Shown one piece after another: positions 4,860-29,579 of a stretch of DNA of 29,928 bases. Below the pieces are notes generated by a model. It searched no databases, was not told the DNA's origin, and saw only the letters and a program-made list of their open reading frames with translations. The position numbers and the translations under genes are program-made. Source of the DNA: a virus; IMG/VR virus record IMGVR_UViG_3300044675_002272, positions 1-29,928 of that record. One strand, given 5' to 3'. Within the stretch, counting starts at the first letter, position 1, and the number at the start of each line of letters is the position of its first letter.

Positions 4860-6247
4860 CACAACGGATGCAGCAACGCAGAGACTCGGCAGCAAACTGG
4901 ACTTCGGTTAATCCGGTTCTTGCTTCCGGCGAGATTGGTATTGAAACAAACTCGACGCCGAGGCGGTTTAAGATTGGTAATGGTGTGACGGCTTGGAGTT
5001 CTCTACCGTACAGCGACAACACTTCCGAAGAAAACACAAATCCTATCGTGATTCTTTTTCACGGGGACAGCAACATGCACGGAATGCCGCTAGACACCTC
5101 AGCCCAAGCGTGGGAAATCTTATCAAGATCAGATTTGAAGATTTTAAACAACTCTAGTTTAGTTTTTCAGGATTTGGATATTGGTTCAAATAATGATGCT
5201 TCCTCTGTCGGACGACATGGGGCAGAATTGCAACTTGCAAACTGCTGTAGATTAGGTGATTTGACTGGCACGGTTTACTGTGCAAAGGTTGCTGTGTCTG
5301 GTTCTAGAATTGCTGAATGGTCTGTTGGAAATGCAACAGGATATTGGACTAATTTCCTAGCACGTATTGCCGCAATAGAATCACAACTAGGAACTACTAA
5401 CATACGATGGATTGTATGGAACTCTTCGGGCATCAACGAAGCCCGCGATAACATGACTGCGGCAAATTACAAATCGGCGTTAATAGCTCACTTTGCAAAA
5501 TTGCGCAATCGACTTGGAGCAACAACCCCTATTTTGCATTTAAACATCCCAACAGGGTTCGCAGAATACAACGCGGCCTACGCGACCAAGATCACAGAGA
5601 TAGCATCGGAATATGCTGACACCTACGCTATTTCGATCATTAACATTGCTGTAGAATCGGACAACATCCATTATACCTATCAAGGACTCAAGAACCTGAC
5701 AGAAAGACTTGTTGATAAAACTCAAGAAGTTCTAGGATATCGATCACAGGAGAAAAAAGCGGTAACATTTTCACAGCTAATAAGTGCTACAGTGGATGGA
5801 CAGGGGATACGTTCGTCTGGCGCATCTATTTCTGGAGGAATATCTAATAGAGCTTTTTCAAATGATATCGCGTGGTCTGTAATTGCGAACTTTGAGGGAG
5901 GGACTGGCAGTCCTGTGTTAGTTGCAATAGATAACATCGAAACAGACAATCTTACTTGGAACGATCATAACTATTTGGCAAGTTTTGTTTGGGTAAGCGG
6001 AACAGCCTACTACGGCACATCATCCGCATACATCACAGCCGCAACTGGCTTTACTTTCCCTTCCAAGGTTAAGTTCGAAAAGTCTGCAAATGACATAAGA
6101 ATAAGCAGCACAACTGACGGTGGTTTAACATGGACAGTGAGACACACAATATCTTCAGCACTGACAAACGTCACTGCTCTTTGGATTAAGGTTGTTTTTC
6201 AAGGTTCATCGGTAGGAAATAGGATTAAAGTGAATTTATACCAATGA
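4856..6247 (+). CDS. Tail spike: Mtd-like adaptor plus SGNH/sialate-acetylesterase-like domain
   Basis: The protein has 463 residues. Residues 5-53 repeat the Mtd-type adaptor domain (NPVLASGEIGIE, FKIGNGVTAWSSLPYS). Residues ~63-290 look like an SGNH hydrolase: a nucleophile block FHGDSNMHG with Ser72, an HGAEL segment near 121, VWNSSGINEA near 187, and the C-terminal DNIH (Asp269, His272), which fits the family DxxH. Such domains deacetylate surface polysaccharides, so this protein may trim host capsule or O-antigen during adsorption. The last ~165 residues are beta-rich and unrecognised, perhaps a carbohydrate-binding module (TFPSKVKFEKS, RISSTTDGGLTW). It is the last gene before a non-coding gap. 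Confidence 0.8.
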   Translation: MTQRMQQRRDSAANWTSVNPVLASGEIGIETNSTPRRFKIGNGVTAWSSLPYSDNTSEENTNPIVILFHGDSNMHGMPLDTSAQAWEILSRSDLKILNNSSLVFQDLDIGSNNDASSVGRHGAELQLANCCRLGDLTGTVYCAKVAVSGSRIAEWSVGNATGYWTNFLARIAAIESQLGTTNIRWIVWNSSGINEARDNMTAANYKSALIAHFAKLRNRLGATTPILHLNIPTGFAEYNAAYATKITEIASEYADTYAISIINIAVESDNIHYTYQGLKNLTERLVDKTQEVLGYRSQEKKAVTFSQLISATVDGQGIRSSGASISGGISNRAFSNDIAWSVIANFEGGTGSPVLVAIDNIETDNLTWNDHNYLASFVWVSGTAYYGTSSAYITAATGFTFPSKVKFEKSANDIRISSTTDGGLTWTVRHTISSALTNVTALWIKVVFQGSSVGNRIKVNLYQ

Positions 6248-15027: not shown

Positions 15028-15461
15028 TGGCAAGCGACGTTGGCAAGGCACTACGAACGAGATTGCTTCAAGATGCAACCCTGACAGGGCTTATTGGGAC
15101 ACGCTTTTATCCTGACGTTATCCCACAAGGTGCTGCATTGCCTGCCGTGGCTTACTACAAGATTTCGACGTTACGCGAGCACACTTTGCTGGACTGCATG
15201 AGGCTTGCACATTCGCGAATCCAAGTTGATTGCTATGCGGAAAAAGCAAACGGTGGCAGAGATAAAGCGAACGATATAGCACATGCTATCCGCAACTCTG
15301 GCATCTGTGCTTTTCGAGGGACTGTTGACGGAATTGCAATCCAAGCTGTCGAGATCGACAGCGGAGACTACTACGATAACGATCCTCCAACGGATGGCAA
15401 TCAGCAGCATCGTTACATTACTTCTTTCGATTTCATGGTTCACTATTTGGAGGCCGCATAA
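15027..15461 (+). CDS. Tail terminator/completion protein, DUF3168 type
   Basis: The protein has 144 residues. It has the pattern ALRTRLLQDATLTGLIGTRFYPDVIPQGAALPAVAYYKIS, then RIQVDCYAEKANGGRDKANDIAHAIR and a final TSFDFMVHY strand, which matches the DUF3168 family of tail terminator proteins (HK97 gp10/lambda gpU role). It caps the finished tail tube and joins it to the head. It lies directly before the tail tube gene, and starts and stops are linked by TAATG overlaps. Confidence 0.88.
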   Translation: MASDVGKALRTRLLQDATLTGLIGTRFYPDVIPQGAALPAVAYYKISTLREHTLLDCMRLAHSRIQVDCYAEKANGGRDKANDIAHAIRNSGICAFRGTVDGIAIQAVEIDSGDYYDNDPPTDGNQQHRYITSFDFMVHYLEAA

Positions 15462-15850
15462 TGCCAGCTTTAACATCACCAGCAGTAGGAAACGGAACCA
15501 CGGTTTCCGGTTTGGGCCAAACGACTTTCGTCAAGAAAGTCACCGGAGCCAAAGAGAAGATTGGGACGTTTGACACGACCGATCTTTCCACTACTGCGTA
15601 CAAGACTCTTGAAAAGCAAGACCTGGCCGATAACCCAGTGGTGACAGTCGAATGTTATCACATTGGGCAGGCTATTTCTTTAGGATCTGTTGGTACGTTC
15701 ACTATCACCTATCCTGCGGCTGGTTCGTTTTCTGGAACTGCGATCGTAACAGCGGTCAACTATCCAGACGCGGAAAGCGGCACTGCAATGATGTGCAGCT
15801 ACGAAATTACTTTTGACGGCGTGACAGGACCAGCGTTTACTGCTGCATAA
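15461..15850 (+). CDS. Major tail tube protein
   Basis: The protein has 129 residues. Its Thr/Gly/Ala-rich beta sequence with KTLEKQDLADNPVVTVECYHIG, GSVGTFTITYPAAG and a C-terminal CSYEITFDGVTGPAFTAA resembles short tail tube subunits: a central GTITYP-like strand and a final strand that ends with 'DGVTGPxF'. Position after the tail terminator and before the chaperone and tape measure is that of the major tail protein. It would stack as hexamer rings to form the tail tube. It is shorter than many tail tube proteins, with no extra Ig-like domain. Confidence 0.8.
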   Translation: MPALTSPAVGNGTTVSGLGQTTFVKKVTGAKEKIGTFDTTDLSTTAYKTLEKQDLADNPVVTVECYHIGQAISLGSVGTFTITYPAAGSFSGTAIVTAVNYPDAESGTAMMCSYEITFDGVTGPAFTAA

Positions 15851-15854
15851 TCGA

Positions 15855-16175
15855 ATGAAAGTTGAACTACAGCAGCATAGCGGTATTCGATACGACGGCG
15901 AGACTGTCGTATTCGATCAATGGCAAGTCTTTGCGACAGGTGCTAACGGTAACCGGGTTCTTGTCGGTTACTTATCGCACGACGAAGAGATTCCATTGAT
16001 GCTGGTAACCAATCAACCAGTCAATATAGTTCGCGAGCTTGTAACCAAGTGCGAAGCGATCACCAAGCGAACTGTTTTGCCTCCAATGGAAATTGTAGAG
16101 CCTCCAGAGATCGACAATTCCGCAGGTGAAGACGACTACACAGACGACGAAGAGGACGACCAGGATAATGATTAG
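15855..16175 (+). CDS. Unknown tail-cluster protein with acidic C-terminus
   Basis: The protein has 106 residues and I do not recognise it. The first ~75 residues look like a small mixed alpha/beta domain (YDGETVVFDQWQVFATG, LVGYLSHDEEIPLMLV). The C-terminus is strongly acidic (EDDYTDDEEDDQDND), which could keep tail components soluble or contact a basic partner. It lies between the tail tube and chaperone genes and overlaps the chaperone start by 8 bases, so it belongs to the same translation unit. Confidence 0.6.
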   Translation: MKVELQQHSGIRYDGETVVFDQWQVFATGANGNRVLVGYLSHDEEIPLMLVTNQPVNIVRELVTKCEAITKRTVLPPMEIVEPPEIDNSAGEDDYTDDEEDDQDND

Positions 16176-16524
16176 CCGCGATAAGTTTTTAGCACTCAAA
16201 GCGAAGCGATACTTGGACGTAAAGGTACTTGGAGAAGAGTACCGAATCCAAAGCATGAGCGAAGCGGAAAAGGCAGACTACGAAATCAAGTTGCAAGACA
16301 AAAAAGCAGGCATGAGTTTCAAGAAAGCTCGTGCTTTGTTCCTTTGTCGTGTGCTTGTCGATTCGACAGGTGACAGACTGCTACTTGATTCCGATTGCGA
16401 TGCAGTCATGTCAATGGATGGAAAGATTACATCAGCATTGTACGGCGTTGCTCAGGATCATTGCGGATACGACGAAGGAGACATTGAGGAGCTTGTAAAA
16501 AACTCCGAACCGGCAGCAGGCTAA
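16168..16524 (+). CDS. Tail assembly chaperone, short (G-type) product
   Basis: The 0-frame product has 118 residues from ATG 16168, inside the end of the preceding gene; a start further upstream would overlap that gene more and only adds a Thr/Lys/Arg-rich stretch. The protein (ISRDKFLALKAKRYLDVKVLGEEYRIQSMSEAEKADYEI, then RALFLCRVLVDSTGDRLL and SALYGVAQDHCG) is like the G product of siphovirus tail assembly chaperones, which coat the tape measure during tail assembly. It ends at TAA 16522-16524, inside the loop of the frameshift hairpin. Confidence 0.85.
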   Translation: MISRDKFLALKAKRYLDVKVLGEEYRIQSMSEAEKADYEIKLQDKKAGMSFKKARALFLCRVLVDSTGDRLLLDSDCDAVMSMDGKITSALYGVAQDHCGYDEGDIEELVKNSEPAAG

Positions 16525-16898
16525 GGCTTGCTGCCAGACTTTGCTTTGCTTGGGGTATTGCAGACGTTCAGGCATGGCTGGAGACAGTGCCAAGTCATGT
16601 TTTGGACTTCTGGATGGCTTTCGATGCAGTTGAGCCAATTGGAGAAGCGTGGAAGCAATCAGCGCAAACACAATGCTTACTGGAAAGACAAATCGAACTA
16701 GAGGCAATGAAGGTTGGAGCGAAGTTTGAGCCGAGCACGTTTGAACGACACATGCCAGCTAGATACTTTCCAGAACCGCAACGTCAAAAGACGAAGCGGA
16801 CGAAGAAGACGACGAAAACAGAGTTTGAATCACTCGGAGCCACTTTGGGGCTAGGAGCAGTAGTCAGAGCAAATGGCAACAACAATAAATCTGGCTAA
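16168..16898 (+). CDS. Tail assembly chaperone, -1 frameshift fusion (GT-type) product
   Basis: The extended product is join(16168..16503,16503..16898), 243 residues. Ribosomes slip back one base at A AAA AAC (16497-16503). The -1 frame is open from there to TAA 16896-16898 and adds 131 residues. The added T part begins LRLAARLCFAWGIADVQAWLETV and continues with VLDFWMAFDAVEPIGEAW, a clear match to the T-domain pattern (RLA...G.....L...S..E...W.AF...EP.G). The T part has no convincing ribosome site of its own. In lambda the G:GT ratio sets correct tail assembly around the tape measure; the same role is expected here. The end overlaps the tape measure start by 26 bases. Confidence 0.85.
16497..16535 (+). 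promoter_or_regulatory. Programmed -1 ribosomal frameshift site
   Basis: The slippery heptamer A AAA AAC lies at 16497-16503, in the correct phase with the 0-frame codons AAA AAC. After an 8-base spacer, 16512-16521 (GGCAGCAGGC) pairs with 16526-16535 (GCTTGCTGCC): 10 bp including one G.U, with a TAAG tetraloop at 16522-16525. The 0-frame stop TAA occupies the loop. Slippery site, spacer and hairpin together match the standard -1 frameshift signal. Confidence 0.88.
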
Positions 16899-18609
16899 CA
16901 TCGCACTCGGTTTCGATGCGTCGAAGATTACTCGCGGAGTCGATCTTTCTGCCGGTGAACTTAGAAAACTTGGTCGGATAGTACAAGACTCAGTTACGCC
17001 TATCGATCGATACAACCGAGACATTGCGATATTGGAGCGTGCACATAACGCAGGTGCATTGTCCGCGAAAAGGCATGCGGAAGCCTTAGAACATCTAAAC
17101 CAAAAGTACAAGCAAACACCACAGCAAAAAACCAATCCGATGGTTGCTGATTTAAAGAGCACTCTTGCACAATACGCAGGACTTGCGGTTGCGTTCCGTG
17201 GCATCCAGACGAGCATGTCGTTAGCCGCTACGGCAGAAAGCAACAAGATATCGCTAGAAGTACTGACAGGCTCAGCCGAAAAAGCAAGATTTCTTTTCGA
17301 AGGATTCATCGCTTTAGATCGATCTTCTCCGCTAAGTCGGCAAGACTTTTCCAAAGCAGCACAAACTTTAGTAGGGTACGGACTGGCCGCAGAACAAACC
17401 ATGCCAGCACTGCGAGCACTGAGCGAAGTTTCTATTGGTAATGCCGATCGATTTCAATCGCTTGCGTTGGCGTTCGGGCAGGTGCAAGCTAACGGAAGGC
17501 TGATGGGGCAAGAAGTCTTGCAGATGGTGAACGCAGGCTTTAATCCGCTGCAGGAAATCAGCCGAACGACTGGTACCAGTATGCTTGAATTGAAAAAGCA
17601 AATGGAGAACGGCGCGATATCGTCAGAGATGGTTTCCGATGCTTTTAAGTCTGCCACCTCCGAAGGTGGTCGATTCTTTGAAATGAATGAGCGGCTGAAG
17701 AATAGTGCAGCCGGGCAATATGCCAAGATGAAGTCAGATGTGGAGTTGCTAGCAACTGAGATTGGAACAAACCTCCTGCCAGCGGCTAAATCATTGATGG
17801 AGATCATGAACGCTGGAGCGAATAGCAAAGGGCAAGGTGGTTTACTTGCAGGTATTGCGACTAACTTTTCCGCTGGAATCGAAGGCATGGTAGCAATTGC
17901 TTCAGATGCGATTACTAACCTTGACGAAAATTCTGTTGGAACAAAGTTCGACGACTTTTTGGCTAGGTTAGGAAAGCAGGAAGGCGACAGGCAAATGGAA
18001 GCTCTGAAGCACGTTCTAACACCAGCCGAGCAGTTGATTCGTGAAAAGAACATGGCAGCCAAAGCTGACACGGAACGGAAGGAACTACAGCGAATAGCGA
18101 ACGAAGAAAAAGCCAAACAAAGTGCTTTGGATCTGTACACGAAAGAGCAGCAAGAGCTTCAACGAAAGCTAGATATCTTGCAACTCGGTACTGCTGAAGT
18201 CGAGTACCAAGAGAACTTGAAAAAAGGACTTAGTGAAAAACAAGCTAGCGAGCTGCGAGACTTGCAAGAAAAGCTTGAACTTGAAAAGAGCATCACCGAG
18301 GATACGGAAAAACGCAAGAAGATGGATTCGCAAACGAAGGATCGTATTCAAAAAGCAGAAAAAGACTTTGACAAACTGAAGTCCGACTTAAAGAACGACA
18401 ATCCAAACAACATCGCCGCAGCGGTTGCTCCAGCGTTACGAGCTGGCAGCGTTGAGGCGTATCGGTTCCTAATGAACCAACGCAACGAAGCCGCAGAGAT
18501 TGCACAAGAGCAAGCAGAGATCGCACGCGAGCAGCTAGTTGTTCAACAACAGCAACTAGAAGCCTTTCAAAGCTCGCAGATGATAGGAATAGCAGGGAGG
18601 ACAGCTTAA
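16873..18609 (+). CDS. Tape measure protein
   Basis: The protein has 578 residues. Residues ~119-302 form the tape measure N-terminal domain (NKISLEVLTGSAEKARFLFEG, MPALRALSEVSIGN, ALAFGQVQANGRLMGQEVLQ, NAGFNPLQEIS, EMVSDAFKSATSEGGRFF, ELATEIG-like LLATEIGTNLLPA). Residues ~385-510 are a long charged coiled coil, and the end is Gln/Glu-rich. Tape measures set tail length and later form the channel for DNA. Using the known ~0.15 nm per residue, the tail should be about 85-90 nm, which is short to medium (inference). No clear transmembrane segment or lytic domain is present. It overlaps the next start by one base. Confidence 0.92.
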   Translation: MATTINLANIALGFDASKITRGVDLSAGELRKLGRIVQDSVTPIDRYNRDIAILERAHNAGALSAKRHAEALEHLNQKYKQTPQQKTNPMVADLKSTLAQYAGLAVAFRGIQTSMSLAATAESNKISLEVLTGSAEKARFLFEGFIALDRSSPLSRQDFSKAAQTLVGYGLAAEQTMPALRALSEVSIGNADRFQSLALAFGQVQANGRLMGQEVLQMVNAGFNPLQEISRTTGTSMLELKKQMENGAISSEMVSDAFKSATSEGGRFFEMNERLKNSAAGQYAKMKSDVELLATEIGTNLLPAAKSLMEIMNAGANSKGQGGLLAGIATNFSAGIEGMVAIASDAITNLDENSVGTKFDDFLARLGKQEGDRQMEALKHVLTPAEQLIREKNMAAKADTERKELQRIANEEKAKQSALDLYTKEQQELQRKLDILQLGTAEVEYQENLKKGLSEKQASELRDLQEKLELEKSITEDTEKRKKMDSQTKDRIQKAEKDFDKLKSDLKNDNPNNIAAAVAPALRAGSVEAYRFLMNQRNEAAEIAQEQAEIAREQLVVQQQQLEAFQSSQMIGIAGRTA

Positions 18610-19502
18610 TGCCAAGCGAAATTGTAAACAGCCAGGAAAGACGCGAAGGCTCTGGAGCGATCGCGATCAGCAGCAATAAACTTGTATTCCGAAGCACTTG
18701 GAATTTTCTTGTACTTGCAAGTTCAACCAGTGTCGGACGCGAAGAAATCCTGCTTGGTACTCCAGGCCTTCCAGTCGTTGGTTTAGTTTACGGATTTACC
18801 CAACAACGCTGCACGTCCAAGGATGCAAAACGCAAGAAAGAGAATCCGCTTTACTGGGACGTTACGTGTCAATTCGAATCAGGAACAGAAGAGCAAAAAC
18901 CGCCATCGGGTGGAGATCCAGACTTTCCAGATCCAGATCCAACGACTTGGATTCCTGTATTCGTTGTCGATTCGTTTGAGACCAAGCAGGTTGTCATCCA
19001 AGAAGACTTTAGCGACCCACCCAAAAAGATAGTCAACTTTGCAAAGCAACCGTTCCAAGAGCCGATACTAACCACCAAAACGCTATGTTCTTTTTCGTTC
19101 ACCCAGTTCGAAGATCCTGCACAAGACATCAACGACATTATGGACAGGAACGACAAGCTAAACGATGGAGAGTTTGCAGGCCGAGACGCGAGAACTCTGA
19201 AGCTAAACGTAACAAGTGCAGGATTAGGTTATTACGGTGGCTACGCAGCTTGGCGAGTTGCTTATCGTTGTTCCTACGATCCAGACACATGGGACATGGA
19301 GCTTCTAGAGGTTGGAAGTCAGTTTGTCGATACGGCAGACGGAAATAAACTAAAGCCGTACTTAGACGATATTCGAAGCCATCGCATGGTTGGAAAACTT
19401 GACACGAACGGAAATAAACTTGCTAGCAACGCAAACCCGCTCACCTCAAAGTTTGTGCCTTACCCGCAAATAGATTTCAGCTTTATCAGGTTGCCTTCAT
19501 AA
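18609..19502 (+). CDS. Unknown tail-tip-region protein
   Basis: The protein has 297 residues and is not recognised. It has a beta-rich N-terminal part (GAIAISSNKLVFRSTWNFLVLA, LYWDVTCQFES), a Pro/Asp-rich linker near residues 98-118 (GGDPDFPDPDP), and a C-terminal half with GGYAAWRVAYRCSYDPDTWDMELLEVGSQ-like strands, so each half may be a separate beta domain. Its position directly after the tape measure is where distal tail or baseplate-hub proteins are encoded; a structural tail-tip role is inferred. It is linked to both neighbours by TAATG overlaps. Confidence 0.6.
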   Translation: MPSEIVNSQERREGSGAIAISSNKLVFRSTWNFLVLASSTSVGREEILLGTPGLPVVGLVYGFTQQRCTSKDAKRKKENPLYWDVTCQFESGTEEQKPPSGGDPDFPDPDPTTWIPVFVVDSFETKQVVIQEDFSDPPKKIVNFAKQPFQEPILTTKTLCSFSFTQFEDPAQDINDIMDRNDKLNDGEFAGRDARTLKLNVTSAGLGYYGGYAAWRVAYRCSYDPDTWDMELLEVGSQFVDTADGNKLKPYLDDIRSHRMVGKLDTNGNKLASNANPLTSKFVPYPQIDFSFIRLPS

Positions 19503-19858
19503 TGGCAAGCAAAGACGAAGAGCTAGTTCTGTTCACTCGTGCGGACAGTGACGAGATACTGAAGTTCGTTTTTAACGAGCCGTCCGGAGCGCCGCATCCT
19601 GCCATGCGTTCGTATGGTGATGCGGAAGTCGTCTTGGCTTACACGACAGCAGGAGCAACAGCCAGGTCGGGGACCACTCTAGGAACCGGTACGGCGACAT
19701 CAAGATGGTTAAGCGAATCTGGAGCTAATAGAGTTATAAACACAACTTCGGATTCTATTTCTTACTTTAACTTGTCTTCAACTGCAGTTGGTCCTAGCAA
19801 ATACATCCTTCTAGCTCGTCTTGGTGCGGATTATATCTGCATCTGGGAAGAGTGCTAA
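19502..19858 (+). CDS. Small unknown tail-tip-region protein
   Basis: The protein has 118 residues and no recognised family. It begins with an acidic segment (ASKDEELVLFTRADSDEILKF), has a Gly/Ala/Thr-rich middle (TTAGATARSGTTLGTGTATSRW), and ends ILLARLGADYICIWEEC. It lies between two unknown tail-region genes with TAATG overlaps at both ends, which suggests co-translation and a structural role. No motif points to an enzyme. Confidence 0.55.
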   Translation: MASKDEELVLFTRADSDEILKFVFNEPSGAPHPAMRSYGDAEVVLAYTTAGATARSGTTLGTGTATSRWLSESGANRVINTTSDSISYFNLSSTAVGPSKYILLARLGADYICIWEEC

Positions 19859-20955
19859 TGAAGATAAGAAACTCTCCTGGTTGTTGTGGTTGTGATAATG
19901 ATGAGTGCATCGAACCTCCGGAAATGCAAATAACAGGCTTGACGGAAGCTTCTGGATGGCATCCTGGAGCACCGGATTGGTATCTCGCAAACCCTTCGTT
20001 TTGTTGCTGGGAAAAAAGATTCACGTATGATTCGTGGCCTATACTTCCGACTAGGTTTACAAGTCCGGTAATACAGGAATTTAATCTTGAGTTTAAGGGA
20101 AGGCGAACGTCTTTCGCGACTATTGGAACCATCTCAGGAAGCTACTGTATAGACCAAGAGGAGATCGATGTCGCCTATATTGAAAGATGGAGAATCTATG
20201 AGGATGCATGGAGGAAATATGCCTACGTAGCTCCGGGGGCTAATCAAGTTATCGTTAAAGCCTTCTTGATTACAATTATGGAAATGGGCGTTCCTGTTCT
20301 GTATTGGGCTTTTGGAATTACTGAAGAATTTACCGCAACCTACGGATACGATCGCAAGTTTCGAAACTACGTTGACAACATTCAAGTTGCAATCGAATGC
20401 GTTAATTGGCTTGGTGGAGACGACCCAACCTATGCCAGCAGACCAACCAGCTCTTGGGTAGAGCAAACACCCGTAAGCTCTAGTTACGTGGATGCATCAG
20501 TAACTTTTGGGCTGGTTAAAGTAGATGACTTGGAAGCATTACCTCCAGGCGACTGGCTGGAGCAAGGTGTGTCAACGACAGACGAAAATACACCTAGCGT
20601 TGCTGGGTGTGTACCTGGAGTCCAAGATCCGTTTTTGATTTCTTACGGCCTAGATCCTCCACCGCTCTGCAGTCAAATAGAAGTGGATTCGGACAGTTGC
20701 GGGGAAGAAATAATAACAACGGGGGCAGTATTATTTGACCCTTTGTTCTTGTCTGGGAAAGTCACAAACAATTCATTGCGACTCAATTCGGGATGCTGCA
20801 TCGATCCATCGACTGTTTGTGAATACAACGAAAGCACTCAGTTTTGGGTCTGGAGACAACGGGCTGAAGTCATAACGTCCACATGCTTAAGAGAATATAA
20901 CCCGGTAGATTTGATAATCCATTCAACCTACACCGTCCGATTTCGATTGCCGTGA
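19858..20955 (+). CDS. Cysteine-rich tail-region protein
   Basis: The protein has 365 residues from ATG 19858, which overlaps the preceding stop (TAATG). It contains 15 cysteines, about 4%: a CCGCxxxxC cluster at residues 9-17, a CC at ~49, and scattered single Cys residues plus another CC (GCCID) near the C-terminus. Such density in a protein without zinc-finger spacing suggests disulfides rather than metal binding. It is otherwise Trp/Tyr-rich and unrecognised. The next gene, coupled by a GTGA overlap, begins with an Erv/ALR-like sulfhydryl oxidase domain, so it may oxidise this protein (inference). Position suggests a tail tip or fibre component. Confidence 0.6.
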   Translation: MKIRNSPGCCGCDNDECIEPPEMQITGLTEASGWHPGAPDWYLANPSFCCWEKRFTYDSWPILPTRFTSPVIQEFNLEFKGRRTSFATIGTISGSYCIDQEEIDVAYIERWRIYEDAWRKYAYVAPGANQVIVKAFLITIMEMGVPVLYWAFGITEEFTATYGYDRKFRNYVDNIQVAIECVNWLGGDDPTYASRPTSSWVEQTPVSSSYVDASVTFGLVKVDDLEALPPGDWLEQGVSTTDENTPSVAGCVPGVQDPFLISYGLDPPPLCSQIEVDSDSCGEEIITTGAVLFDPLFLSGKVTNNSLRLNSGCCIDPSTVCEYNESTQFWVWRQRAEVITSTCLREYNPVDLIIHSTYTVRFRLP

Positions 20956-22022
20956 TACTTCGAACTGCTGCATACCTTAGAACCGACGAGCCTGTTTCGC
21001 AAGCAGTTAGTCAGGTTCCAACCAATGCCCATTCACCAGCGATGATACTAAGGCAACAAGCCCATTGGAGGAAACTTCATACAGAAACTTTCGACACTGA
21101 GAAGTTTAACAAATGGATAGAGAGGATACCAGGCTGTTCGCCATGCAGAGCTAACTTCCGCAAAATCCTTGAATACAGTCCGCCACGCTTTGATGACTGG
21201 TTCAAATGGACATGGGAGGTGCATAACGAAGTCAATTCGAAGATAGGAAAGTCTATAGTCGCATGGGAGGAAGCGTGTAATCGGTGGAATTGGAACGGTA
21301 CTTTTCCAGGACCAGTCAACCGAAAACGACATCGCAAAATCGTAACCGCCATCGGACCGAACCGAATCGACCGTCAACGACATTGCATATCGAGTTGGAT
21401 CGATGCAGGATTTGAAGTGATTGCGATGCAGACAGCCAGAGAACTGCCGTTGTTTCAACCGTTGTTCTCTGACTTGAAAATCGAATGGGTAGAATCGAAC
21501 GACGTTGAAAGCTTCTACAATTTTCCAACGCAGAAGATCCGCAATCTAGCTAACGTCCCAGAAACAATGCTCCTGAACTCCGATTGCGAAATGAGTGGTG
21601 ACTATCAACTAGACGAAACGGATTCAATCTCCGAGTTCTTTATCCGTTGGAACTATACCAGCGGTGTCTACAGAGCTCGCGAGTTTGAATGGGGTCTGGA
21701 TGGAATGCACCTCACGGACGAAGCTAAGAAAGTTATCCCGCAGGACTTCCCGTTTTGCATCGGACAAGCCATGTGGGACTACGCTGTGCCGTGGCTATTG
21801 ATGCATCACGATATCCCATTCCGTATCAATCATGGACAATGGTTACTGCACGAAGATCACCAACAAAACTGGAAAGATGAGTATTGGTGGAAGGGCTCTC
21901 ACTGGATGCAGGACCGATACGGAGTAAACCCAATGTGGTTCCGAGAAACTTTCCGAAAAGACATCGAACCGAATTGGAAATATGACCGCAATACAGGACG
22001 CTGGAACCAACAAAAGGAATGA
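20952..22022 (+). CDS. Erv/ALR-like sulfhydryl oxidase domain fused to glycosyltransferase-like domain
   Basis: The protein has 356 residues with a GTG start (GTGA overlap). Residues ~55-110 resemble Erv/ALR flavin-linked sulfhydryl oxidases: redox CxxC at Cys62-Cys65, FRKIL, PPR, then W-x-W-x-x-HNEVNSKIGK at 86-100 with the hallmark HNxVN at 91-95, and a further Cys109 before Trp112. Residues ~130-330 resemble a glycosyltransferase-like fold: TAIGPNR, CISSWIDAGFEVIAMQ, the acidic NSDCEM at 209-214, IRWNYTSG, and FCIGQAMWDYAVPWLLMHH. The reading frame is continuous, so this is a real fusion. FAD binding and activity are not proven. The upstream Cys-rich protein is the obvious candidate substrate. 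Confidence 0.7.
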   Translation: MILRTAAYLRTDEPVSQAVSQVPTNAHSPAMILRQQAHWRKLHTETFDTEKFNKWIERIPGCSPCRANFRKILEYSPPRFDDWFKWTWEVHNEVNSKIGKSIVAWEEACNRWNWNGTFPGPVNRKRHRKIVTAIGPNRIDRQRHCISSWIDAGFEVIAMQTARELPLFQPLFSDLKIEWVESNDVESFYNFPTQKIRNLANVPETMLLNSDCEMSGDYQLDETDSISEFFIRWNYTSGVYRAREFEWGLDGMHLTDEAKKVIPQDFPFCIGQAMWDYAVPWLLMHHDIPFRINHGQWLLHEDHQQNWKDEYWWKGSHWMQDRYGVNPMWFRETFRKDIEPNWKYDRNTGRWNQQKE

Positions 22023-22078
22023 ACAATGACCCCACCGAAAACAGCAGCTAGAATTCCAAAAATCTTTTCCTAAAGCTG

Positions 22079-22107
22079 TTGACTACCGTACGACGATACG
22101 GTATAGT
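22079..22107 (+). promoter_or_regulatory. Sigma70-like promoter with operator palindrome in its spacer
   Basis: The -35 element TTGACT is at 22079-22084 and the -10 element TATAGT at 22102-22107, with a 17-base spacer. A perfect 7-bp inverted repeat, TACCGTA (22084-22090) and TACGGTA (22097-22103) with 6 bases between, fills the spacer and touches both boxes. A bound dimeric repressor would block RNA polymerase. The transcript would begin near 22114 and carry the small genes and both hammerhead ribozymes. Confidence 0.7.
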
Positions 22108-22148
22108 AACTACATCAGACGCCAGCAAAGCAAACAAGGAAACGAAAA

Positions 22149-22397
22149 ATGGTACTAATCAAAGAAATTGATAGCACAAAAGTAAACGGTGTCAAAACAA
22201 CATACGTCGAAATGGCTACAGAAAAGCGAGAAGCTATGGTTTCCTTTTGCCCGTCAAATGTTTTTCCAGTCGCTGTTTACACAACAAAAACTCTTTCCGC
22301 TGGACGAACCTTTAAGAGTTGGGAAGAAGCTATCTCAGCTTATAAAAATGCAAACATTGTAGAAATGATCGAGACAGCAAAACGAGTGGTAAACTAA
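22149..22397 (+). CDS. Unknown 82-residue early-region protein
   Basis: This is the first gene after the 22079 promoter; AAGGA at 22136-22140 lies 8 bases before the ATG. The product (VLIKEIDSTKVNGVKTTYVEMATEKREAMVSF, ending FKSWEEAISAYKNANIVEMIETAKRVV) looks like a small alpha/beta protein without a recognised family. Its stop codon TAA (22395-22397) directly abuts the first hammerhead ribozyme, so after self-cleavage the upstream mRNA would end in the ribozyme fold. Confidence 0.6.
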   Translation: MVLIKEIDSTKVNGVKTTYVEMATEKREAMVSFCPSNVFPVAVYTTKTLSAGRTFKSWEEAISAYKNANIVEMIETAKRVVN

Positions 22398-22449
22398 ACT
22401 CACTGACGAGCTGGCGAGACTCCAGCGAAACACCTTCGGGTGTCTGAGT
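22398..22449 (+). ncRNA. Hammerhead ribozyme 1 (type I)
   Basis: All core elements are in order. Stem I is ACTCA (22398-22402) with TGAGT (22445-22449). The core is CTGACGA (22403-22409). Stem II is GCTGG (22410-22414) with CCAGC (22422-22426), closed by a 7-base loop. GAAA is 22427-22430. Stem III is CACC/GGTG (22431-22442) with a TTCG tetraloop, plus the A15.1-U16.1 pair. C17 is 22444. Predicted cleavage is between 22444 and 22445, at GUC. Stem I is open, which makes it type I. Confidence 0.92.
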
Positions 22450-22500
22450 AAATTCAGCCGAAAGGCCCGCCTCGACGGTTTCGAGCTTTGGAGATTTGGA
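22450..22500 (+). promoter_or_regulatory. Conserved structured leader after hammerhead 1
   Basis: Downstream of the ribozyme come two small hairpins: GCC-GAAA-GGC (22457-22466, a GNRA tetraloop) and CTCGA-CGGTT-TCGAG (22471-22485). GGAG at 22490-22493 lies about 7 bases before the next ATG. The same leader follows the second ribozyme, with the tetraloop changed from GAAA to GCAA, which keeps the GNRA class. After cleavage this would be the 5'-OH leader of the next small mRNA. Confidence 0.7.
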
Positions 22501-22809
22501 ATGATGGCAACAATGACCGCTCAAGAATTCGTAAACTCAATTGAATTTCCTTGTTTCTTTTTTTCTGGCAACGGCGCACCAGCGGGACAAACATACGCAA
22601 TCTTGGAAAACACAGAATTACCTGTGAACCTTGAGGATGTAAAAGGTGAGATCGAAGCAGACGGAGGTTTCATCTGCACGAATCACGACGACGGCAAAGG
22701 CGGCTGGAATCACAGCGACCATCGCGGAAACACGATTACGAAGATCCAAATTTACAGCGACCAAAAGCTTTGGGAGCGAGAGTACGCAGAGTACATGAGC
22801 GAAGCTTAA
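22501..22809 (+). CDS. Unknown 102-residue protein flanked by hammerhead ribozymes
   Basis: The start is ATG 22501 (a second ATG follows directly), served by GGAG at 22490-22493. The product is acidic and unrecognised: AQEFVNSIEFPCFFFSGNGAPAGQ, then a Gly/His/Asp-rich ICTNHDDGKGGWNHSDHRGN, ending in a charged helix (WEREYAEYMSEA). The HDD...WNHSDHRG cluster could bind metal, but this is speculative. The two ribozymes would cut the transcript on both sides, releasing this ORF in a 411-nt RNA. Its stop codon shares one base with ribozyme 2. Confidence 0.6.
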   Translation: MMATMTAQEFVNSIEFPCFFFSGNGAPAGQTYAILENTELPVNLEDVKGEIEADGGFICTNHDDGKGGWNHSDHRGNTITKIQIYSDQKLWEREYAEYMSEA

Positions 22810-22860
22810 CTCACTGACGAGCTGGCGAGACTCCAGCGAAACGGCTTAGGCCGTCTGAGT
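22809..22860 (+). ncRNA. Hammerhead ribozyme 2 (type I)
   Basis: Same architecture as ribozyme 1. Stem I is ACTCA (22809-22813) with TGAGT (22856-22860). Core CTGACGA is 22814-22820. Stem II is GCTGG (22821-22825) with CCAGC (22833-22837). GAAA is 22838-22841. Stem III is CGGC/GCCG (22842-22853) with a TTAG loop, and U16.1-C17 are 22854-22855. Predicted cleavage follows 22855. Compared with copy 1, two stem III base pairs changed on both strands (A-U to G-C, C-G to G-C), a compensatory pattern that supports the fold. Confidence 0.92.
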
Positions 22861-22914
22861 AAATTCAGCCGCAAGGCCCGCCTCGACGGTTTCGAGCTTT
22901 GGGAGATTGAGAAA
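22861..22914 (+). promoter_or_regulatory. Conserved structured leader after hammerhead 2
   Basis: The leader repeats the one at 22450-22500: GCC-GCAA-GGC (22868-22877) and CTCGA-CGGTT-TCGAG (22882-22896), followed by GGGAG about 10 bases before ATG 22915. It would be the 5' end of the downstream mRNA after cleavage at 22855. Confidence 0.7.
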
Positions 22915-23325
22915 ATGTCGCAAGAAATTCGAAAACCAGCAAACTGGGAAAACAGCACATTCGAAGACTTGTTCACGATTGAAGCTGGACAAGCTTATAT
23001 TGCCGAGCAATTCGGTGGAAGCGTTGACTCTGTTAAGAATTTTAGATCAAACAGAGAACGTTCTGACGCTTGCAGTTACGAACTATTTAAAGATGGGTCT
23101 TTGTGGTTTCACAATAACGCTCAAGACGAAATTTGGGCCGATGTTTCCGACTTCGTTCGTGAGCTGCAATTCACTGGAGTGTACTGGGAAGATACTCGTG
23201 ATCGCGATGGTTTTCTAGTCGATGCAATGGATCGCAATTTGTTGGTTCACCTGTGGGGTGAAGATGACGCTCGCGAGTTTTTTGAATCTGCTGGTGGGAT
23301 TGTGTCAGAAGTGGACGTAAACTAA
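22915..23325 (+). CDS. Unknown 136-residue acidic protein
   Basis: ATG 22915 follows the second ribozyme leader and its GGGAG site. The product is acidic and unrecognised (FEDLFTIEAGQAYIAEQFGGSVDSVKNFRSN, LWFHNNAQDEIWADVSDFVRELQF, LVHLWGEDDAREFFESAGG). It is not similar to the product of 22501-22809, so the ribozyme-leader unit was duplicated without its ORF. The stop overlaps the HTH gene start (TAATG). No enzyme motif was seen. Confidence 0.6.
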   Translation: MSQEIRKPANWENSTFEDLFTIEAGQAYIAEQFGGSVDSVKNFRSNRERSDACSYELFKDGSLWFHNNAQDEIWADVSDFVRELQFTGVYWEDTRDRDGFLVDAMDRNLLVHLWGEDDAREFFESAGGIVSEVDVN

Positions 23326-24438: not shown

Positions 24439-25074
24439 ATGGCGAGCGACGCTAACGGATGCACGGATTGGAATCTACGCATGGCTTACGTGCAAAATGC
24501 TTTGTTTGAGACTGGAGGGTTTTCCAGTGCAAGATCTTTCCATGAATGCAAGACTCGACAGGAAGCAGCGTTGCGGTGGTTACGTTCGCAAAAGCTGCCA
24601 AAGGTCGTATACGAGAAGCAACACAAGGGCGCTAGATTAGCACCCGCTATTGAAGTCCTAAGGAATGGATGGGGGTTCGATATTCTTGGCGATGGTTCAA
24701 TTGGCAATCCATACTTTCTTGCTGATAGGCTTCAGTATCCTACGCGGGTTCATGTTACGCCGCAAATGGAGGCTGCCTACTATGCTTCAGAGCATTGGAC
24801 GCAAACAAGGACTGGGCGATTCGAGTGCGATAACTATTCGTGCCGCATCTGCACGATTGAAGAACCTGCGGCTTTTGTTCACCACATAAAGTACGACTTG
24901 TTCAACGAGTCGCTTGATGATTTGATTTCTGTCTGCGAACGTCACCACAAGATGATTCACGACAATTCAAGAATCGGCTTTCCAATTGGTTGTGATGTTT
25001 CGATAGCTGAGAAACTACTAGGCGTTCCGTCCTACTCTTTTGAAGACTGGCTTTTGCCGCTAAGTCATGATTAA
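24439..25074 (+). CDS. HNH endonuclease-like protein
   Basis: The protein has 211 residues. The C-terminal ~85 residues hold an HNH motif: CDNYSCRIC (zinc-binding CxxC pair), VHHIKYDLFNESLDDLISVC with the catalytic HH at the start, and CERHHKMIH at the end. The N-terminal ~125 residues are unrecognised, with a helical, basic part (TRQEAALRWLRSQKLPKVVYEKQHKG) that might bind DNA. It is unlike the packaging HNH at 6422 in sequence and arrangement. It overlaps the methyltransferase gene by 8 bases. It could be a free-standing homing nuclease or a nuclease partnered with that methyltransferase; the sequence does not decide. Confidence 0.75.
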   Translation: MASDANGCTDWNLRMAYVQNALFETGGFSSARSFHECKTRQEAALRWLRSQKLPKVVYEKQHKGARLAPAIEVLRNGWGFDILGDGSIGNPYFLADRLQYPTRVHVTPQMEAAYYASEHWTQTRTGRFECDNYSCRICTIEEPAAFVHHIKYDLFNESLDDLISVCERHHKMIHDNSRIGFPIGCDVSIAEKLLGVPSYSFEDWLLPLSHD

Positions 25075-26089
25075 GAACGAGATCAACACATCACTCGCTT
25101 CTATATCAGCAGCAAAGAACGCACTCGTCGCAGCTTCTAACCTAGAAGACGTTTTGACGATTCGCGACAAGGCTAAAGCGATCCAGGAACTTGTGAAGGC
25201 ACGCAACGCAAGCCTAGAGACTCAAAACGCAGCAGCAGAGATTCGATTGCGAGCTGAACGCAAGGCTGGCGAGATGCTGCATAAGATGAATCTCAAGCGA
25301 GGCAAGAAAGCAATTGATACCACGATGGTATCAATTAAAGACCTGGGAATAACAGGAAACCAATCCTCTCGTTGGCAACTAACCTCCAAAGTCAAAGAGC
25401 GAGACTTTGTGAAAATCGTCACCGAGTGCAACGCAATTAGAGAGGAGTTGACGCAAAAGAGGCTTTTAGATTTTGCGAAGAAGATGACAAAAGCCGAAAA
25501 GCTAGAGTCTGAAATTATAGAGCAGCCTGAATCGGAAGATGGTTCGGTTGTCGACGACCTAACGAACTTAGAGCAACGCAAGTTTGGAACGATATACGCG
25601 GACCCGCCCTGGCAATATGGCAATCAAGGTACTCGCGCTTCGACTGGTAATCACTACAACACAATGACTCTCGATGACATTTGCAGTATGCCGGTCGAGT
25701 CTCTTGCGGCTGACGACGCCCATTTGCACCTATGGACAACGAATGCATTTTTGTTTGATGCAAAGCGGGTAATGGACGCATGGGGATTTGAGTACCGTTC
25801 GGTATTTGTTTGGGTAAAGCCTCAAATGGGTATCGGAAACTACTGGAGAGTTTCGCACGAGTTTTTGCTGCTTGGCATTCGTGGAAATGCTAAACGATTT
25901 AACGAGCACAACCATATGAGCTGGGCTCAAATCGACAGGTCTAAGCATTCAGCAAAACCTGAGCAGATACGCAGAACTATTGAGAAAGTAAGCAACGGAC
26001 CTTACTTGGAGTTGTTTGGAAGGAATCAGGTTCATGGCTGGACGGTGTTTGGTAATCAAGTATCAGCACAAAGTGTATTGGCAATTTAA
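25067..26089 (+). CDS. MT-A70-type DNA adenine N6-methyltransferase
   Basis: The protein has 340 residues. Residues ~166-335 are an MT-A70 methyltransferase: catalytic DPPW in IYADPPWQYG, HYNTMTLDDICSMP, HLHLWTTNAFL, FEYRSVFVWVKPQ, GNYWRVSHEFLLLG and PYLELFGRNQVHGWTVFGNQ. The N-terminal ~150 residues (LEDVLTIRDKAKAIQELVKARN, AEIRLRAERKAGEMLHKMN, IKDLGITGNQSSRWQL) match a helical region commonly joined to this domain in phage and plasmid methyltransferases and likely used for DNA binding. It transfers methyl from SAM to the N6 of adenine; the recognition site is unknown. It may protect phage DNA from host restriction. Confidence 0.9.
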   Translation: MIKNEINTSLASISAAKNALVAASNLEDVLTIRDKAKAIQELVKARNASLETQNAAAEIRLRAERKAGEMLHKMNLKRGKKAIDTTMVSIKDLGITGNQSSRWQLTSKVKERDFVKIVTECNAIREELTQKRLLDFAKKMTKAEKLESEIIEQPESEDGSVVDDLTNLEQRKFGTIYADPPWQYGNQGTRASTGNHYNTMTLDDICSMPVESLAADDAHLHLWTTNAFLFDAKRVMDAWGFEYRSVFVWVKPQMGIGNYWRVSHEFLLLGIRGNAKRFNEHNHMSWAQIDRSKHSAKPEQIRRTIEKVSNGPYLELFGRNQVHGWTVFGNQVSAQSVLAI

Positions 26090-26464: not shown

Positions 26465-26650
26465 ATGTTGGTACTCAGCAGGAAGAAAACGGAATCAGTT
26501 CGCATTGGAAGCGACATCGTTATCACGATTATTGAAATACGCGGGGACAAGGTACGTCTTGGGTTTAACGCACCGAAGGACGTTTCGATTCATAGGCAAG
26601 AAGTGTACGACATCATCATGCAACAAAGCGAGGAGAAAATCGCATCATGA
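26465..26650 (+). CDS. csrA: Phage-encoded carbon storage regulator CsrA
   Basis: The protein has 61 residues. It begins MLVLSRKKTESVRIG (Leu4 and Arg6 of the RNA-binding strand are present), continues with VTIIEIRGDKVRLGFNAPKDVSIHR and includes the Arg44-equivalent in VSIHRQEVY. This is the complete CsrA fold: a dimer that binds GGA motifs in RNA hairpins and often blocks ribosome sites. The ATG is preceded by GGAG at 26455-26458. The gene overlaps the acetyltransferase by 4 bases (ATGA). A phage copy could redirect host mRNA control or act on phage leaders, many of which contain GGA near the start codon; targets are not known. Confidence 0.93.
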   Translation: MLVLSRKKTESVRIGSDIVITIIEIRGDKVRLGFNAPKDVSIHRQEVYDIIMQQSEEKIAS

Positions 26651-27129
26651 CTGCAATTCAAATGGCTACTCAGACCTACATCCGATGGATGGTGCTAAGC
26701 GACTTATCCTCAGTAGTTGCAATCGAAAAAGACGTATACGACTACCCGTGGAGTCAGCAAGAATTCCTCATCGCAGCGCGTCAACGACACTGGATCGGCA
26801 TGGTCGCAGAACGAAACGAAGAAGTCGTAGGCTACATGGTTTACGAACTACACAGAGATCGAATTGAACTGCTGAACTTTGCAGTCCGTGCTAGGTCGCA
26901 ACGTCTTGGAGTTGGTTCTGCAATGGTAGAAAAGTTGAAGTCGAAACTAGCTTACGAAAGACGGAACAAGATATCGCTGGAGATACGAGAAAGGAACTTG
27001 GATGGACAGCTATTTTTTCGCCAAGCTGGTTTTTTATGTACGTCGATTTTGCATGGCTGGTATGCAGTTGAGGAAGAGTCCATTGCGTATCGAATGCAGT
27101 TCAGTACAGGAGAGTTGCGAAATGGCTAA
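26647..27129 (+). CDS. GNAT N-acetyltransferase, RimI-like
   Basis: The protein has 160 residues. It shows the GNAT order: an N-terminal LSSVVAIEKDVYDYPWSQQEF (very like RimI), GYMVYELHRDRIELLNFAV, the acetyl-CoA loop RARSQRLGVGSAMV, and NLDGQLFFRQAGFLCTSIL. RimI acetylates the N-terminal Ala of ribosomal protein S18 using acetyl-CoA; related enzymes modify other N-termini. Whether this copy acts on S18, a host defence protein or a phage protein is unknown. It is translationally coupled to csrA and to the following gene, which starts inside its end. Confidence 0.85.
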   Translation: MTAIQMATQTYIRWMVLSDLSSVVAIEKDVYDYPWSQQEFLIAARQRHWIGMVAERNEEVVGYMVYELHRDRIELLNFAVRARSQRLGVGSAMVEKLKSKLAYERRNKISLEIRERNLDGQLFFRQAGFLCTSILHGWYAVEEESIAYRMQFSTGELRNG

Positions 27130-28678: not shown

Positions 28679-28933
28679 ATGACTAAGGATTACAAAATAC
28701 GATTATCTGAAGCTAAAGCACAGTTTACGCAAGATGGCAATACTCTAGGATCAACTGACGACACGGAGATACTGGACATATCTTTTGAGAATCAGCTTCC
28801 AGGTGATGAGACGTTTATGGTTTTGCGATCAACAACTGGATGGTCTATCAACGATGCTTCCGACTTAACAAACATTTTAGAACGGGTTCATAAAGCGATT
28901 GAAGCTATAAGGGAGTTTGATGGCAATGATTGA
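28679..28933 (+). CDS. Unknown 84-residue protein
   Basis: ATG 28679 follows AAGGA with 6-7 bases of spacing. The acidic product (DYKIRLSEAKAQFTQDGNTLG, DDTEILDISFENQLPGDETFMVLRSTTGW, ERVHKAIEAIREF) is not recognised. It overlaps the exonuclease gene by 14 bases, so it is translationally linked to it and may be an accessory factor. Confidence 0.5.
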   Translation: MTKDYKIRLSEAKAQFTQDGNTLGSTDDTEILDISFENQLPGDETFMVLRSTTGWSINDASDLTNILERVHKAIEAIREFDGND

Positions 28934-29579
28934 TTTAGACTCACTAATTGAAGACGTTGCGATCGTCGATCGTGACGAAGCAGCACGAGAAGCATGGCTA
29001 CAGAAACGTGCTGGACGGATTACCTGCAGTCGCTTCGGTGACTTGATCGGAGAAGGGAAAGCAAAAGACGCTTTGTTTACTCAGACGGGTTATAGCTATT
29101 TGCAATTGCTTGTCGCGGAACGGTTGGGTTCGTGGTATTCCTTTTCGAACAGCGCGACACAGTGGGGAACGAATAACGAACCGATTGCAATTGACGAGTA
29201 CCGAAAACTTACTGGGTACGAAGTCGATTCAACACCGTTCAATTTCTTCGAATACAACGATTTTATCGGTGGTACTCCAGACGGATTGGTAGGTACTGAA
29301 GGGACCGTTGAAGTCAAGTGTCCATTTAATCCCTCGGTGCATGTCGGAACGCTGTTGTCGAAGACTGTTCCGAAAGAGTACGAATGGCAAGTCTACGGCC
29401 ACATGCTGGTGACGGATCGCAAGTGGTGCGACTTTATCAGCTTCGATCCACGGATTGAAGGAAAGCAAAAAATAGCAATCGTTAGGATAGAACGAGACGA
29501 TGCGAAGATTGCGTTTTTGAAGTCACGGCTGGAGTTAGCGGTGAAGGTTATGGGTGAGATGATGGATAGGTTGATTTAA
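28920..29579 (+). CDS. YqaJ-type viral recombinase/exonuclease
   Basis: The protein has 219 residues from ATG 28920 (ATG 28926 is an alternative; both lie within range of GGGAG at 28911-28915). It has the PD-(D/E)xK nuclease pattern of the YqaJ/lambda exonuclease family: RAGRITCSRFGDLIGEGKA at the start, QWGTNNEPIAIDEY with the family Glu, FIGGTPDGLVGTEGTVEVKCPF with catalytic Asp and the ExK, and YEWQVYGHMLVTDRKWCDFIS. It degrades one strand of duplex ends to give single strands for annealing-type recombination and phage replication. A single-strand annealing partner was not recognised here. Confidence 0.9.
   Translation: MAMIDLDSLIEDVAIVDRDEAAREAWLQKRAGRITCSRFGDLIGEGKAKDALFTQTGYSYLQLLVAERLGSWYSFSNSATQWGTNNEPIAIDEYRKLTGYEVDSTPFNFFEYNDFIGGTPDGLVGTEGTVEVKCPFNPSVHVGTLLSKTVPKEYEWQVYGHMLVTDRKWCDFISFDPRIEGKQKIAIVRIERDDAKIAFLKSRLELAVKVMGEMMDRLI

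Follow-up and report, generated by a model that had tools for sequence, protein, structure and literature searches.

Two elements between the small genes of a phage operon are probably type I hammerhead ribozymes that punctuate the operon, with cleavage giving single-gene messages that have promoter-like 5′ ends; we assign this reading a probability of about 0.78. The window, meaning the whole 29,928-nt stretch of DNA that was analyzed, is a linear virus record. It carries terminase and portal genes and is therefore that of a tailed phage, the terminase of which is less than 60% identical to that of every phage record. The one genome scan performed gave a single match, to a Thaumarchaeota MAG. 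A sigma-70-like promoter (TTGACT-17-TATAGT, positions 22079–22107, plus strand, 10/12 in a consensus scan) would drive three genes on the same strand: gene A (22149–22397, 82 aa, from the ORF list), gene B (22501–22809, 102 aa), and gene C (22915–23325, 136 aa), the stop codon of which overlaps the next start (TAATG). All three are family-less, with no match in PHROGs, Pfam, NCBIfam, or PADLOC. Given its own promoter-like sequence and its location upstream of recombination and regulatory genes, an early operon is plausible. The promoter at 22079–22107 is conserved in contigs L003, L004, L008, L032, L033, and L034, and a block of 70–107 nt around it is approximately 91% conserved beside otherwise unlike genes.

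Hammerhead 1 spans positions 22398–22449 of the plus strand and hammerhead 2 spans 22809–22860. In copy 1, a 5-bp stem I (ACTCA, 22398–22402, paired with TGAGT, 22445–22449) brackets the core segment CTGACGA (CUGACGA in RNA, 22403–22409), stem-loop II (GCTGG(CGAGACT)CCAGC, 22410–22426), GAA (22427–22429), stem III (ACACC(TTCG)GGTGT, 22430–22443), and C17 at 22444. The assignment draws on the sequence, on a covariance-model match, and on the minimum free energy (MFE) structure of the isolated stretch, which is the hammerhead fold. Copy 2 matches copy 1 in stems I and II, whereas its stem III reads ACGGC(TTAG)GCCGT, with C17 at 22855. Between the two copies, one stem III pair changes from A-U to G-C and another from C-G to G-C, as an earlier note on this DNA had read them, and TTCG in the loop becomes TTAG. 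In both copies, stem I is open and the other two stems are closed. Both contain the full core, consisting of C3 U4 G5 A6 N7 G8 A9, G12 A13 A14, the A15.1-U16.1 pair, and H17, and all core bases are likewise intact in every close relative fetched. Cleavage is predicted to occur after C17 at 22444 and 22855, the two positions given in that note. The stop codon of the upstream gene is separated from C3 by 5 nt in copy 1 and by 4 nt in copy 2, where the gene B stop (TAA, 22807–22809) overlaps stem I. Unrelated phages also have the 5-bp stem I, its flanking UAA, and the 7-nt loop II. Fast cleavage at low Mg2+ needs a tertiary contact between stems I and II; such a contact may exist here, as hinted by the recurrent 7-nt loop II. 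A candidate pairing between CGAG of loop II and a downstream CUCG was dropped; it is broken in L008.

The two motifs were recovered by a covariance model, R1, trained on L010 and L022 only. R1 was built on rows of equal length, as MAFFT placed stems II and III out of register when hammerheads of mixed length were aligned. In the window, R1 detects copy 1 at 41.7 bits (E = 3.2e-10) and copy 2 at 35.8 bits (E = 2.1e-8), covering both motifs end to end, and nothing else is significant, the next match having an E value of 0.99. A full-structure descriptor gave no matches when the window was simulated 300 times with a Markov-1 model (both strands, ~18 Mb). In an alignment of 34 distinct rows fitted to the model, 14 of the 16 stem pairs vary on both sides and 93.9% of cells are paired; none of 500 shuffles reached 14/16. 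Direct reading, R1, and covariation thus agree on the earlier claim of two complete type I hammerheads, with catalysis as a prediction. In covariance-model searches, R1 is significant for both copies, but RF00163 (Hammerhead_1, cut-off 34 bits) gives no window match at E ≤ 10, and a search with Rfam at lax thresholds yields no significant hammerhead match in the window. The Rfam scores of the copies, 19.3 and 16.1 bits, fall under the cut-off. The best Rfam match to copy 1 is the RAGATH-1 hammerhead (RF03152), which has the same core order; at 19.3 bits against a cut-off of 56.3, copy 1 falls outside this family, and the RAGATH-1 upstream hairpin is matched by a short gapped stretch only. We attribute the Rfam miss to model sensitivity because the independent model R1 recovers both copies. 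BLAST of the cassette against isolated phages returned short marginal matches only, and the two that were inspected (L025 and L026) contain weak hammerhead candidates. A type I hammerhead with a loop II resembling those of the window was also seen at positions 5619–5679 of L027, a contig of the Thaumarchaeota MAG (40 bits with R1).

The repeated unit is larger than the hammerheads. Positions 22391–22491 and 22802–22902 form a 101-nt repeat of 92% identity, so that the extent first described holds for the ribozymes and leaves out the leader and Shine-Dalgarno sequence. Together, ribozyme, structured leader, and Shine-Dalgarno sequence make up a module of approximately 105 nt. The leader 3′ of the hammerhead is CAGCCGnAAGGCCCGCCTCGACGGTTTCGAGCTTTGG, followed by the Shine-Dalgarno sequence and an ATG 57–60 nt past the cut. 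In the gene B leader (22450–22493, plus strand), a GCC-GAAA-GGC hairpin (22457–22466) is followed by a CTCGA/TCGAG hairpin region and the Shine-Dalgarno sequence GGAG (22490–22493). The gene C leader (22861–22905, plus strand) has a GCC-GCAA-GGC hairpin and the Shine-Dalgarno sequence GGGAG (22901–22905). The same leader is found behind the promoter in L003, L032, L033, and L034. Hairpin 1 differs in length between promoter-type and hammerhead-type leaders and is longer in L032 and L033; relative to the expected promoter transcript, the cut 5′ end would have several extra nucleotides before the hairpin. The earlier account of the locus was right about the hammerhead motifs and overlooked both the conserved leader and this exchange of promoter for hammerhead.

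Related phages provide a natural comparison. Six further IMG/VR contigs carry the window cassette. L005, L006, and L007 have the tandem pair as in the window, whereas L003, L004, and L008 have single copies that precede or follow other genes, and in these three contigs other genes take the position of gene A. Gene C lies behind a hammerhead in the window and in L005, L006, and L007, whereas its place in L032 and L033 is immediately downstream of the promoter, where it has the same leader and no hammerhead. No hammerheads were found in the records of L032, L033 (40 kb), or L034. The identity of L033 to the window is 98.9% over 15153–22121, which ends just past the promoter, and the alignment resumes at 22878 within the gene C leader. 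From this break and resumption, the stretch comprising gene A, a hammerhead, gene B, and a second hammerhead sits exactly between promoter and leader. In L004, gene B is again behind a hammerhead, the unit of hammerhead and gene C is absent, and the stop codon marks the exact join. L003 shows both settings in neighboring genes: the leader of the first follows the promoter, and that of the next follows a hammerhead. These alignments show two states, which could have arisen by either gain or loss of units. The window arrangement is unusually clear because near-identical phages without the ribozymes show what the ribozymes replace. With the same gene and leader behind a promoter or a hammerhead, in phages nearly identical up to the promoter, the locus makes the role of phage hammerheads testable.

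These comparisons allow a mechanism to be proposed. Transcription from the promoter at 22079 would produce one transcript spanning all three genes. The hammerheads, each at the preceding gene's stop codon, would fold upon emerging and cut after 22444 or 22855. The upstream message would retain the ribozyme as a compact 3′ end consisting of stems II and III with a 2′,3′-cyclic phosphate, and the downstream message would begin with a 5′-hydroxyl near its own structured leader and Shine-Dalgarno sequence. Because the same leader follows the promoter in related phages, an internal gene would have, after cleavage, nearly the same 5′ UTR as when it is promoter-proximal; the operon could therefore gain or lose a gene with little change to that gene's own mRNA ends. 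In general bacterial mRNA decay, 5′-hydroxyl ends, 5′ hairpins, and 3′ hairpins protect messages, and by analogy the ends made by cleavage may protect the messages of genes A–C. We infer catalysis in the cell, processing, end protection, and a benefit for gene exchange. Of 18 hammerheads that fitted the consensus in a published test, 4 were inactive (PMC3088659). Predicted folding fits this scheme, in that the hammerhead is the MFE structure of the emerging RNA. When the leader is included, the hammerhead lies 0–1.4 kcal/mol from the MFE. It is part of the MFE structure for copy 1 (22396–22510), whereas for copy 2 a competing fold is at −35.0 kcal/mol versus −33.6 kcal/mol for the hammerhead, and the outcome varies with the end point chosen.

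The placement at stop codons had been called unusual in the earlier note; a survey indicates that, in the sample covered, it is the rule for phage type I hammerheads. Contigs were scanned with stem I left free, followed by a structure filter, and the counts below are among the matches listed. The survey, which is confined to motifs that a pattern can find (largely those with TTCG stem III loops) and takes in the window and a few loci outside IMG/VR, yielded at least 163 distinct type I hammerheads on at least 107 contig fragments, nearly all phage. The upstream ORF stop ends −12 to +4 nt from C3 in 131 of the 163 listed (80%), compared with 8.9% for random positions on the same strands. Averaging by kinship over 59 groups of related contigs gives 82% among these matches. 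In 20/163, the TGA within the core (CUGA) doubles as the stop codon, and in 16/163 the stop ends directly before C3. The next start with a Shine-Dalgarno-like motif lies a median of 33 nt past the cleavage site (118 cases among the matches listed). Multicopy runs are common, with two or more hammerheads on 39 of the listed fragments and three or more on 14, and hammerhead clusters flanking single phage genes were reported in 2011 (PMC3088659). Both window copies fall in a subclass that combines UAA immediately 5′ of a 5-bp stem I with a 7-nt loop II. L003, L004, and L008 retain this UAA although the gene already ends at an earlier in-frame stop, which hints that the UAA may serve the ribozyme as well. 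The resulting rule, a hammerhead at a stop codon with the next start approximately 25–60 nt past the cut, can be tested across phage genomes, and it could help detection, since the Rfam model missed the window copies. Two further fragments were observed to be dense in such motifs. On L117 (2298–8545), nine type I hammerheads are mostly followed by an AGGAGG-like Shine-Dalgarno sequence and an ATG approximately 20 nt past the cut. On L012 (8910–13428), nine hammerhead candidates fall within 4.5 kb and separate most of the genes; several adjoin stop codons, and each is followed by a Shine-Dalgarno sequence, often within a CCTGAGGAGG-type hairpin. Some are core variants with weak scores.

Hammerheads also coincide with sites where related phages differ. 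One hammerhead-gene unit separates L017 from L019 and L020; L015 and L023 have the upstream gene in common and different downstream genes. Of 81 hammerheads, 42 (52%) have an alignment breakpoint no more than 60 nt away, compared with 90 of 864 other gene ends; when gene ends within 1 kb serve as the control, the comparison is 42/81 with 44/214 (21%). That hammerheads mark junctions of gene gain, loss, or swap is suggestive at this strength because the contigs lack independence and misassembly can occur at short repeats; the excess may stem in part from variable regions or from such errors at repeats. A tentative extension, which we consider possible and somewhat short of an even chance, is that hammerheads serve exchangeable gene cassettes as adaptors: ribozyme, leader, and gene would be inserted together at a stop codon, and promoter-like 5′ ends would be regained by self-cleavage. 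If true, gene expression would be independent of operon position, which would account for hammerheads at stop codons and exchange junctions across many phages.

The same breakpoints could be explained mainly at the DNA level, with the cassettes acting as short, gene-borne stretches of repeated homology that promote recombination at gene boundaries, RNA cleavage being incidental or lost. The gathering of breakpoints at hammerheads, the near-identical cassettes ahead of different genes, and the L017/L019 unit bounded by shared hammerhead sequence are all consistent with this explanation. Recombination homology has no need, however, of the compensatory stem III change between copies; the stems covary around an intact core, and unrelated phages are alike in structure and placement rather than in sequence. 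We therefore regard it as unlikely. That the elements are degenerate or inactive relics is very improbable. Their Rfam scores are sub-threshold and cleavage is a prediction, but the fully intact core in both copies and all close relatives fetched, together with the stem covariation, argues against decay.

A regulated switch would use the same RNA differently. CUCC in the uncut stem-loop II would pair with the Shine-Dalgarno sequence, and folding or cleavage, perhaps gated by the ribosome at the stop codon, would control downstream translation. One predicted fold of the 105-nt RNA does pair CUCC with GGAG, the competing folds differ by approximately 1–2 kcal/mol, and the stop codon is within one ribosome footprint of the core. 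This fold hinges on the end points, however, and over 22396–22510 the hammerhead is the MFE structure. Moreover, leaders of most other phage hammerheads are shorter and plainer than those in the window, and no aptamer or ligand site was seen in this locus. A switch is accordingly improbable, and operon punctuation by self-cleaving hammerheads is the reading that we retain.

In outline, a hammerhead-punctuated phage operon is already known, and what is new here is a clear natural comparison. The window locus is an instance of a known arrangement because clustered phage hammerheads have been described: in Perreault et al. 2011 (PMC3088659), several hammerheads flank individual prophage genes and single-gene mRNA processing is proposed. 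Those phage and prophage clusters resemble the window in type I fold, core, and several copies flanking single small operon genes, and the same text reports that bacterial tandem arrays cleave in vitro, one of them also in E. coli. The HHphage hammerhead of haloviruses HF1 and HF2, as presented there, similarly lies just upstream of a phage gene, in that case an early one, and a mapped mRNA 5′ end coincides with its cleavage site. In contrast to the canonical cores between ORFs in the window, HHphage has a variant core and precedes the first ORF of its transcript. A 2017 review (PMC6155905) associates hammerheads with small non-conserved ORFs and calls their role in phages an open question. 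Relative to the available portions of these two sources, the present analysis documents the stop-codon position, the leader shared by promoter and ribozyme, and the loss or gain of units between near-identical phages. In the open-access literature, the scope of the search, with subscription papers and preprints outside it, no report was found of the stop-codon rule, the promoter/hammerhead leader swap, or the breakpoint association.

Several neighboring genes were noted in passing. A 356-aa ORF at 20952–22022, which closes the structural region, contains an Erv1/Alr sulfhydryl-oxidase-type domain (PF04777, E = 1.5e-10), an odd find in a phage; in L032 and L034, the promoter is immediately preceded by an ORF end that looks similar. 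Downstream of the operon are an HNH endonuclease (24439–25074), a DNA methyltransferase (25067–26089), a GNAT acetyltransferase (26647–27129), and a YqaJ-type exonuclease (28917–29579). Positions 26465–26650 encode a CsrA-like regulator (phrog_9500, E = 1.8e-20). CsrA binds GGA motifs, and it is conceivable from the GGA at the Shine-Dalgarno sequence that this regulator acts on the hammerhead-linked leaders.
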